NCBI GenBank assembly: GCA_027490815.1
Contig: JAIXXJ010000036.1
Location: 38,313-102,312 of the forward strand
Length of the DNA stretch: 64,000 nt
Source of the DNA: Streptomycetaceae bacterium
GTDB lineage: Bacteria; Actinomycetota; Actinomycetes; Nanopelagicales; Nanopelagicaceae
Direction: 5' to 3'
Position 1 is the stretch's first letter. The number at the start of each line of letters is the position of its first letter. The position numbers and the translations under genes were made by a program. Shown here in pieces: positions 53,274 to 58,640 of this stretch. Under the pieces are notes generated by a model that was given only the letters and a program-made list of their open reading frames with translations, was not told the DNA's origin and did no database searches.

Positions 53274-54308
53274 CTATTTTAGTGATGACGTACCGGTCGA
53301 ACGAAGATCTTCGCATGCACGAGTAACACGAGCAGCCATACCAGCCTCTGCTAATTTGCCCCAAGCACGTGGGTCGTATGCTTTCTTGTTTCCTACTTCA
53401 CCATCAATCTTTAATACACCGTCATAATTTTTTAAGACGTGGTCAACGATTGGGCGAGTAAATGCATATTGAGTATCGGTATCAACATTCATCTTGATAA
53501 CACCGTAATCGAGTGATTCACGAATCTCAGTGAGTAGAGAACCTGAACCACCATGAAACACAAGATCCATTGGCTTGCTACCTTGAGGAAGTCCAAGTTT
53601 GGCAGAGACTGCCTCTTGCAAAGTTGCAAGAATTTTTGGCTGCAAAACTACGTTTCCAGGTTTATACACTCCGTGAACATTTCCAAATGTTGCAGCAACT
53701 AAATAGCGCGCCTTTGCGTCAGTGCCCAAGGTTTCAACTGTCATAAGAGCATCTTCAGGTGTTGAGTACAACTTGGCATCATGTTTTGCTTCAATGCCAT
53801 CTTCTTCCCCACCGACTACACCAATCTCAATTTCAAGGACTGTTTGTGCAGCTACTGACATTGTTAACATTTCTTTTGCAATCTTCATATTCTCAACCAT
53901 ATCGACGGCCGAACCATCCCACATGTGTGAGTTAAACAAAGGTGCTTTACCCGACTTGAGTCGATCTGCACCAAAAGCTAACAGTGGTCGCATGAAGCCA
54001 TCGAGTTTTTCAACTGGGCAGTGATCGGTATGAATTCCAATATTTACTTTGTAGTTCTTTGCAACAACGTGGGCATACTCTGCAAGTGCTACTGCGCCGT
54101 CAACCATATTCTTTACAGTTGATCCAGATGCATATTCAGCACCACCCCATGAGAATTGAATAATTCCATCAGACTCAGCTTCGGCAAAACCACGAATTGC
54201 TGCAGTTACTGTCTGTGATGATGAAACATTTATAGCCGGATATGCGAATGCGCCTTTTTTTGCACGATCTAGCATGTCATTGAAAACTTCAGGGGTTGCA
54301 ATCGGCAT
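53274..54308 (-). CDS. fba: Class II fructose-bisphosphate aldolase
   Basis: HTDHCPVEKLDGFM; LVFHGGSGSLLTEI; MNVDTDTQYAF. Confidence 0.96.
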   Translation of the reverse strand: MPIATPEVFNDMLDRAKKGAFAYPAINVSSSQTVTAAIRGFAEAESDGIIQFSWGGAEYASGSTVKNMVDGAVALAEYAHVVAKNYKVNIGIHTDHCPVEKLDGFMRPLLAFGADRLKSGKAPLFNSHMWDGSAVDMVENMKIAKEMLTMSVAAQTVLEIEIGVVGGEEDGIEAKHDAKLYSTPEDALMTVETLGTDAKARYLVAATFGNVHGVYKPGNVVLQPKILATLQEAVSAKLGLPQGSKPMDLVFHGGSGSLLTEIRESLDYGVIKMNVDTDTQYAFTRPIVDHVLKNYDGVLKIDGEVGNKKAYDPRAWGKLAEAGMAARVTRACEDLRSTGTSSLK

Positions 54309-54420
54309 TGTGGTGACTCCTCTTTGCTCGTTTTAAAACAATGTAATTCTTTAGACTGAGCGCTTCGTTGAGTCGTCTAGAGGCTTACGGCCAATCCTCT
54401 CACTTTCGATGTGTAGGCAC

Positions 54421-54452
54421 AAAAAAGACCACCCGAGACACCCCGAGTGGCC
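54421..54452 (-). terminator. Intrinsic terminator GGCCACTCG-GGGTGTCT-CGGGTGGTC-TTTTTT
   Basis: 9-bp stem (with G-U pairs), 8-nt loop, T6 on the minus strand. Confidence 0.85.
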
Positions 54453-54465
54453 CCTTTCAATCGAT

Positions 54466-54570
54466 CTACGCCATGGTTTTTAGGGCGTTTGCCAGAAACT
54501 TGGCCAGAGCCGCTACGAGGACGGGACTACTTAATAGCTTGAGGAAGAGTGCGATAAAAGATGTAAGCAT
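54466..54570 (-). CDS. Unlisted 34-aa cationic hydrophobic peptide MLTSFIALFLKLLSSPVLVAALAKFLANALKTMA
   Basis: ATG 54570, TAG 54466; SD GAAAGGAG at good spacing (gaaaggagaccacATG); followed by an intrinsic terminator. Confidence 0.7.
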   Translation of the reverse strand: MLTSFIALFLKLLSSPVLVAALAKFLANALKTMA

Positions 54571-54674
54571 GTGGTCTCCTTTCTGTTGCGACATTTTCGA
54601 TCAATGTCAATCAAATAAAATATCGGTCGCCAAGTACTGTTGATAACGATGTCAAAGATGTAATGTTGTGAGGC

Positions 54675-56636
54675 ATGAGCCAAGATCATGAATCGATCGA
54701 GAATCTTTCGACGGAAGATAGAAAGTTTCCACCGACATCAGATTTTGCCGCGCGCGCTAACGCAAAAGCAGATTTATACGAGTTAGCAGAAAAAGATCGC
54801 CTTGCTTTTTGGGACATGCAGGCCAAGAATTTAAAGTGGGATAAACCATGGAGTAAAACCCTTCAATGGGAGGCTCCCTATGCACAATGGTTTGTTGGTG
54901 GCACATTAAATGCATCAGTTAATGCTTTAGATCGCCATGTTGAACAAGGTCTTGGAGATCGAGTTGCTTTCTACTTTGAAGGTGAACCTGGCGATAGTCG
55001 AACAATTACCTACGCTCAACTTCTTACTGAAGTTAAGAAAGCCGCAAACGCTCTTACTGAATTAGGAATCAATTCGGGAGATCGTGTTGCGATTTACATG
55101 CCGATGATCCCTGAAGCTGCCATTGCTATGTTGGCTTGTGCCAGAATCGGTGCTCCCCATTCTGTTGTCTTTGGTGGTTTCTCTGCCGATGCACTTTTGT
55201 CTCGGATTCAAGATGCCGATGCAAAGTTGGTGATTACTGCTGATGGTGGATTTCGGAAGGGCTCTCCATTTGCACTAAAGCCGGCAGTTGATGAGGCGCT
55301 AAAGGGAAAACACAATGTCGCCCATGTCTTAGTAGTTCAACGAACCAAGCAAGAAACAGCTTGGAATGACAAAACTGATGTTTGGTGGCATGAGATTATG
55401 AGTAGACAATCAGAAGAGCATGTTGCGCAATCTTTTGATTCTGAACATCCACTCTTTATCTTGTATACATCTGGCACAACTGCAAAACCAAAAGGAATTT
55501 TTCACACAACAGGTGGGTATTTAACCCAAGCAGCATTTACACACAAGGCTGTATTTGATCTAAAGCCAGAAACCGATGTCTACTGGTGCACGGCCGATGT
55601 TGGTTGGGTTACAGGACATAGTTACATTGTTTATGGTCCATTAATCAATGGTGCAACACAGATTATGTATGAAGGAACTCCCGATACTCCACATAAAGGG
55701 CGTATCTTTGAATTAATCGAAAAGTACGGTGTAACTATTTTGTATACAGCTCCAACATTAATTCGCACATGGATGAAATGGGGAGATGAATTTCCACGGG
55801 CACATAATTTAAATTCATTGCGTTTGTTGGGCTCTGTAGGAGAACCAATTAATCCGGAAGCTTGGATGTGGTATCGAGATGTAATAGGTGGCAACAGATG
55901 TCCGATCGTAGATACTTGGTGGCAAACCGAAACAGGAGGAATCATGATTTCTCCATTGCCGGGTGTGACTGCTACCAAACCCGGTTCTGCAATGTCGGCG
56001 ATCCCAGGTATCAGCGCGGTTGTTGTTGATGATAAAGGTGTACCTGTTGCAAAAGGTCATGGCGGATTTTTAATTCTAGATAAACCATGGCCAGGAATGT
56101 TGCGCGGAATCTGGGGCGAAGATGAGCGTTATAAAGAAACGTATTGGTCTCGTTTTCCAGGAATTTATTTTGCAGGTGATGGAGCCAAATTAGATAAAGA
56201 TGGAGCAATTTGGCTTTTGGGAAGAGTTGATGATGTGATGAATGTTTCTGGGCATCGTATTTCAACAACAGAAGTTGAATCAGCGTTGGTTTCACATGAA
56301 TCTGTTGCAGAAGCTGCAGTTGTAGGTGCCCATGATGCAATGACAGGGCAAGGAATAGTTGCCTTTGTTATCTTACGCGGAGGCATGGCGCATGCAAATG
56401 GGAATGAGCTCGTTGCAGAACTTCGAAATCATGTTGCTAAAGAGATAGGTGCCATTGCTAAGCCGCGACAAATATTGGTTGTTGCAGAGCTTCCAAAGAC
56501 TCGAAGTGGAAAGATTATGCGCCGTTTACTAAAAGATGTCGCTGAAAATCGCCAAGTTGGTGATGCAACTACTTTGGCTGATCCAAACGTAATGAAACTG
56601 ATTTCAGAGGGATTAAATACAAGTAGCGAAGATTAG
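54675..56636 (+). CDS. acs: Acetyl-CoA synthetase
   Basis: [40 protein letters not shown]. Confidence 0.97.
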
Positions 56637-57956: not shown

Positions 57957-58640
57957 GTGACCCCAGAAGAATCTATTGTTCGCAAAGCGCCTTTATTTAC
58001 TGCCCTTGAGGAATCGGCTGCACTCTCACTACATGCGTCAATGGATTCAGTAAAAATCTCAAAAGGCTCAATCTTGTTTGCAGAAGGCGACGAGGGTGAT
58101 CATCTTTATGTGATTGTTGAAGGAAAGATAAAGCTGGGTACATCCAGCGGGGATGGGCGAGAGAACCTGCTTTCCATTCTTGGCCCTGGTGAAATGTTTG
58201 GTGAACTCAGTCTTTTTGATCCAAATCCTCGGACATCAACTGCAACGGCCGTAACAGATGCCAAACTTTTAAGCCTTGGTCAAGCAAAACTTATTCCCTG
58301 GCTAACAGAAAATCCTCGCGTATCACTTAATCTTTTAGCCAGTCTTGCACAACGTCTACGCCGTACTAATGAAGCAGTTGGCGATCTAGTTTTCTCAGAT
58401 GTACCAGGAAGAGTTGCAAAAGCACTTATTGATTTGGGTGAACGATTTGGTAAACAAACTGATGAAGGATTATTGGTCAACCATGATTTAACTCAGGAAG
58501 AGTTAGCACAACTAGTTGGTGCTTCTCGAGAAACGGTCAATAAAGCACTTGCAGATTTTGCAGGGCGTAATTGGTTGAAACTAGATGGACGCGCAGTTCT
58601 TATAACAGATTTAGAAAGACTTTCAAAGCGAAGTAAATAA
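57957..58640 (+). CDS. crp: Crp/Fnr family transcriptional regulator
   Basis: Cyclic-nucleotide fold GEMFGELSLFDPNPRTSTATAV; HTH TQEELAQLVGASRETVNKALADF; GTG start. Confidence 0.93.
   Translation: MTPEESIVRKAPLFTALEESAALSLHASMDSVKISKGSILFAEGDEGDHLYVIVEGKIKLGTSSGDGRENLLSILGPGEMFGELSLFDPNPRTSTATAVTDAKLLSLGQAKLIPWLTENPRVSLNLLASLAQRLRRTNEAVGDLVFSDVPGRVAKALIDLGERFGKQTDEGLLVNHDLTQEELAQLVGASRETVNKALADFAGRNWLKLDGRAVLITDLERLSKRSK

Follow-up and report, generated by a model that had tools for sequence, protein, structure and literature searches.

A conserved small gene divergent from acs in Candidatus Planktophila encodes a probable membrane-surface peptide

Conserved, taxon-restricted small membrane proteins are a well-known kind. 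SpoVM of Bacillus, an amphipathic peptide of 26 aa, lies at the membrane surface and serves sporulation, and MgtS, AcrZ, CydX and KdpF are small regulators or subunits that span the membrane as one transmembrane helix. Phenol-soluble modulins and leaderless bacteriocins are cationic, amphipathic helical peptides made without a leader, and type I toxins of the TisB, Ldr, Fst and TxpA kinds are small hydrophobic peptides with their own terminator. Here, we analyse a small gene of the acI actinobacteria, a group that ranks with the most abundant bacteria of fresh water and whose genomes are strongly reduced. It lies between acs and fba in a 64,000-nt stretch of DNA (the window) whose host is a Candidatus Planktophila (acI lineage, Nanopelagicaceae).

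The product of this gene resembles SpoVM in being tiny, cationic, proline-containing, predicted to be amphipathic and helical, and encoded by a single gene without a leader. It differs by having two helices and by its lack of sequence similarity (searches of Pfam and of PDB sequences gave no match), and sporulation is not known from acI bacteria. With MgtS, AcrZ, CydX and KdpF it shares hydrophobicity, a length within roughly 30-50 aa and a position below annotation cut-offs, but its hydrophobic stretch is interrupted by a hinge and by a residue that is basic throughout, and the adjacent genes encode no known partner. The cationic, amphipathic helical character (predicted here) and the lack of a leader recall modulins and leaderless bacteriocins, whereas the gene is near-universal, vertically inherited and under purifying selection, without a transporter or immunity gene nearby and without a family match. 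Type I toxins are likewise small, hydrophobic and equipped with a terminator, but the gene studied here is single-copy, fixed and unmatched in Pfam and NCBIfam. Finally, large smORF catalogues exist, for example the global microbial smORF catalogue (PMC11364881), whose families are also conserved, taxon-restricted and devoid of known domains; the Planktophila family differs from them by its defined locus, Shine-Dalgarno (SD) sequence, terminator and structural pattern. Our literature search found no mention of the peptide family, which appears to be undescribed; the catalogues may hold its sequence (PMC11364881).

Table 1. Features of the acs-fba region, in window coordinates.
Feature	Position	Strand	Description and basis
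Small protein CDS	54466..54570	-	ATG at 54570, TAG at 54468-54466; 34 aa + TAG, product MLTSFIALFLKLLSSPVLVAALAKFLANALKTMA (3 Lys, no Asp/Glu); read from sequence; homologues, dN/dS, frame control
Shine-Dalgarno GAAAGGAG	54576..54583	-	followed by ACCAC (5 nt), then ATG
Intrinsic terminator	54421..54452	-	GC-rich stem 54452-54427, T6 54426-54421; folding
Palindrome GACATT-N7-AATGTC	54590..54608	.	exact in window; conservation checked in aligned relatives
acs, acetyl-CoA synthetase	54675..56636	+	divergent neighbour; Pfam ACAS_N, AMP-binding, AMP-binding_C
fba, class II fructose-bisphosphate aldolase	53274..54308	-	downstream, behind terminator; Pfam F_bP_aldolase 2.2e-73
Likely acs promoter	54637..54666	+	CTGTTGATAAC around -35, TAATGT at -10, 8 nt before acs ATG; putative function
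Conserved non-coding block GAGGATTGGCCGTAAGCCTC..CAACGAAGCGC	54360..54403	-	alignment of 87 upstream regions; putative function

A sequence-only reading of the window had proposed an overlooked micro-gene equipped with an SD and a terminator of its own, and the frame, both signals and a nearby palindrome proved exact to the base (Table 1). The motif GAAAGGAG followed after 3-9 nt by ATG occurs once in the 64 kb, where a first-order Markov model of the window predicts 0.32 occurrences, or 0.1 when combined with an ORF of 25-60 aa. It is the strongest SD of the window. An SD-like site of any sort precedes just 2 of the 17 first-of-directon genes, and the remark that this SD is conspicuous amid mostly leaderless starts therefore holds. 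The terminator stem, GGCCACTCG...CGGGTGGTC, begins 13 nt past the stop codon with the T6 run behind it; it has a folding energy of -19.5 kcal/mol and had been missed by an automated terminator scan.

The small ORF is a true protein-coding gene, judging by how its sequence evolves. Public relatives retrieved through fba were Candidatus Planktophila and other Nanopelagicaceae, acI freshwater actinobacteria; a single-sequence search found the ORF in 46 of 100 relatives, all of the same genus. (Four records, L031, L038, L056 and L110, are titled Bifidobacterium breve or Streptomyces griseus and are evidently misnamed.) Start, SD and stop are conserved among the homologues, which have no internal stops. 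Within the frame, pooled pN/pS comes to 0.17-0.37, whereas the sense frames +1 and +2 give 0.83-4.2; a median dN/dS of 0.08-0.20 is seen in no frame but the right one, and third codon positions are 1.4-2.7 times as variable as first and 4-9 times as variable as second ones. All but about one of 340 measurable pairs show purifying selection; the amino-acid sequence diverges between species and genera much faster than those of fba or acs. Among 70 distinct relatives, 41 have the exact GAAAGGAG and 68 an SD of the AAGG/GGAG type, while a hairpin with a T-run follows the ORF in 63 of the 70, with stems of several unrelated sequences. The ORF, its SD and the presence of a terminator are thus kept across Planktophila. 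The pattern is the opposite of the one that the sequence-only reading had named as its refutation, a locus where the hairpin alone is conserved: frame and SD persist and the hairpin sequence does not. The palindrome fared differently. It is absent or broken in all aligned relatives, even the close L003 and L031. We therefore rejected it as an operator, and no role for it is supported; it is probably incidental.

A profile built from 24 sequences (E <= 1.5e-5) matched 77 of the 88 sampled Planktophila genomes, almost always with one strong match per genome; the host genome (1.23 Mb) has a single copy, and orthologues are present in the complete genomes of strains such as IMCC25003, IMCC26103 and P. 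lacus MMS-21-148. Class II fba occurs in 80 of the 88 genomes, 77 of which carry the peptide gene at the acs/fba position. The three exceptions (G014, G220 and G254) have kept acs and fba, but the gap between them has shrunk to ~140-160 nt from ~350-410 nt, and the T-run of the old terminator remains as a scar in G014 and G254, as it does in L070 and L078. The scar indicates a derived deletion, and the absence from a few species shows that the gene is not essential. The small gene is deleted at five loci of our set (L150, L154, L195, L070 and L078), with the former T-run, GAGCGCCGATTTTTC, left at L150, L195, L070 and L078. In the six fba-less Planktophila genomes that were examined acs was not found either; the whole acs-fba block is missing there, and these genomes are therefore uninformative on the loss of the peptide.

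Outside Planktophila, homologues that are more diverged (32-46 aa) occupy the corresponding site in other genera of the Nanopelagicaceae, and in most of the family's genera the gene is placed next to acs. The hydrophobic, SD-led small ORF at this acs-divergent site measures 36 aa in g37 and g51, 39-40 aa in g38, 35-54 aa in g42, g45 and g46, and 48-56 aa in g39, g41, g44 and g49. All 30 best genome-wide matches of the long form are in front of fba, and acs was identified on the other side in 29. Short and long forms share their place and a similar character; homology between them is unproven, since profile comparison of the 34-aa and 52-aa forms gave an hhalign P of 0.07 and 0.11. No such ORF was found in g40, g43, g48 and g50, where acs has another neighbour. 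A class-wide HMM search with both forms gave credible matches in Nanopelagicaceae only. One match beyond the family (G382, E 0.003) was rejected because it lies inside a 392-aa frame.

These genomes also show to which neighbour the gene belongs. The ORF still adjoins acs in g38 genomes that have lost fba; persistence without fba was seen in G104, G107 and G114 and in Nanopelagicus-like genomes. Since it stays beside acs after the loss of fba, it belongs with the former. Hence, the description of the gene as lying upstream of fba is true of the window but misses the lasting association.

AlphaFold2 with the family alignment predicted a helix at residues 2-13, a break at 14-15 and a second helix at 16-33, with a mean pLDDT of 90.3; confidence in the model of the long form was low (68.6). 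In the window peptide the two helices are predicted to be amphipathic, a check that the sequence-only reading had named, with hydrophobic moments of 0.44 and 0.37 that peak at 95-100 degrees (z 2.6 and 2.2 against shuffles). The K11 column holds Lys or Arg in each of the 19 short-form sequences that were aligned, and a hinge of the Ser/Asn-Pro or Gly type usually comes after it. In the predicted structure a Ser/Asn-Pro hinge joins the helices, and further basic residues lie on the polar face of the second. Most relatives have a net charge of +2 to +4. In distant genera amphipathicity is weaker and the charge is not kept (the g42 peptide has net charge 0), such that conservation is stronger for position and for the basic residue 11 than for the general character of the peptide. 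The peptide does not look like a single-TM protein: the predicted helices of 12 and 18 residues are broken at 14-15, basic residue 11 is always there, and no uninterrupted hydrophobic helix of ~18-20 aa is predicted. A membrane-surface peptide fits better than a single transmembrane helix, because the basic residue and the hinge interrupt the hydrophobic stretch. The earlier call of a small, cationic, hydrophobic peptide thus stands, and it is probably membrane-active; the more specific labels of bacteriocin, modulin or type I toxin that came with it found no specific support.

Database searches gave no further lead. The peptide has no match in Pfam or NCBIfam up to E 10, in PADLOC, among phages, or in PDB by sequence or by fold. 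PHROGs gave nothing for the window peptide, and a match at E 0.2 for one relative was disregarded, as was a Nif11 match for another (E 0.036), which fell below the cut-off. Rfam returned sub-threshold noise on the locus, and folding of the whole locus gave a z of -0.88, that is, no structured RNA.

Our preferred account is that of a monocistronic Nanopelagicaceae gene for a membrane-surface peptide that acts inside the cell, and we hold it to be about evenly balanced between right and wrong. The gene, which diverges from acs and is shielded from fba by the terminator that follows it, would be strongly translated, and the peptide would lie in the inner surface of the cytoplasmic membrane, with its hydrophobic faces in the lipid and Lys/Arg at the phosphates. 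Its role there may be accessory or regulatory, like that of small membrane proteins of the SpoVM or the MgtS/CydX type, and not that of an exported weapon; an inside role is favoured because transporter and immunity genes are lacking and inheritance is vertical. Purifying selection across nearly the whole of Planktophila suggests that the gene matters to these bacteria. It sits below annotation cut-offs, the searched libraries hold no model of its family, and this family makes a compact, testable set of small membrane proteins.

A more specific form of this account assigns the peptide to acetate uptake or activation (Acs, SatP), as a small subunit or a regulator dedicated to it, which we regard as unlikely. 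The gene is the divergent neighbour of acs in most sampled genera and remains with it once fba is lost, and in several g39 genomes a gene of the GPR1/FUN34/YaaH (SatP) type separates acs from the small gene. Yet satP is missing from the locus in most members, Planktophila included, the three Planktophila genomes with a deletion keep acs without the peptide, the acs of g40, g43, g48 and g50 lacks such a neighbour, and synteny alone is weak evidence. For a function, synteny offers a single hint, and a weak one: the association with acetate activation or uptake through acs and, in some outgroups, satP. The intervening gene for a SatP-type acetate transporter was seen at L081, L086, L087, L091, L099, L111, L114-L116 and L118.

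The peptide might instead be secreted, as a leaderless bacteriocin or modulin whose cationic, amphipathic helix-hinge-helix would be exported without a leader and act on competitor membranes, or as a surfactant or signal. Its size, its charge in most relatives, its two predicted amphipathic helices, the strong SD and the absence of a leader agree with such a role, and so does its divergence, much faster than that of its neighbours. But the ten surrounding genes (purB, purA, fba, acs, and those for a redoxin, an HhH-GPD glycosylase, a Crp-like regulator, a YjgF-like and a YqeY-like protein and a semialdehyde dehydrogenase) include no ABC transporter or immunity gene, one vertically inherited copy is found in nearly all species where a patchy distribution might be looked for, nearly all pairs are under purifying selection, and neither phages nor PADLOC gave a match. 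We find this improbable. The same low standing goes to a broader proposal, that the fast-diverging, acs-adjacent helix-hinge-helix peptides, short and long (32-56 aa), form a previously undescribed secreted or membrane-acting system, for instance in neighbour interaction or the control of acetate flux.

A type I toxin, whose hydrophobic peptide would be held in check by antisense RNA, is less probable still. Size, hydrophobicity, and an SD and terminator of its own fit this model, and the SD is partly paired in predicted leaders, with a mean unpaired probability of ~0.4, a value uncalibrated by shuffled sequences. In contrast, the gene is single-copy, vertically inherited and fixed in streamlined genomes, with no paralogues; it is conserved at the protein level and matches no Pfam or NCBIfam family; and no sigma-70-like promoter was found on either strand of the gene and its upstream region, by a consensus scan from which the promoters of this organism may differ. 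Finally, the order ORF, terminator, fba on one strand might suggest an upstream ORF whose terminator attenuates fba, which is effectively excluded and refuted for the family: the ORF is kept in Nanopelagicus-like genomes without fba, a separate conserved block lies ahead of fba, past the terminator, and persists where the ORF is deleted, selection acts on the amino-acid sequence and not just on a stalling motif, and the stem sequences are not conserved, in agreement with the earlier remark that the codon content does not suggest an amino-acid attenuator.

The block upstream of fba, GGATTNGCCGTAAGCCTC then CAANGNNGCGC, is kept family-wide, also where the small gene is deleted (window, L111-L140, L162-L165 and L191-L195), and is probably a separate promoter and 5' leader of fba. 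Two loci that have lost fba, L163 and L164, carry it in front of purA. On the other side, conservation between the small gene and acs peaks at GTTATCAACAG, which reads CTGTTGATAAC on the acs strand; some 14-20 nt past it comes a TAnnnT box that ends ~8 nt before the acs ATG, and this segment is likely a leaderless acs promoter. A Crp-family regulator (cNMP_binding and HTH_Crp_2; window 57957-58640) is encoded ~1.3 kb beyond acs and could regulate acs or fba. The neighbourhood of the aldolase varies in some genera, as read from the sequences and not from family scans: fba adjoins a gene reading like a DedA-type membrane protein in g48 and g50, and in g45 (L189 and L190) the small ORF is followed downstream by one whose sequence reads as a class I fructose-bisphosphate aldolase. 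Class II fba was not found in these g45 genomes, and the class I-like ORF looks like its replacement at the same locus.
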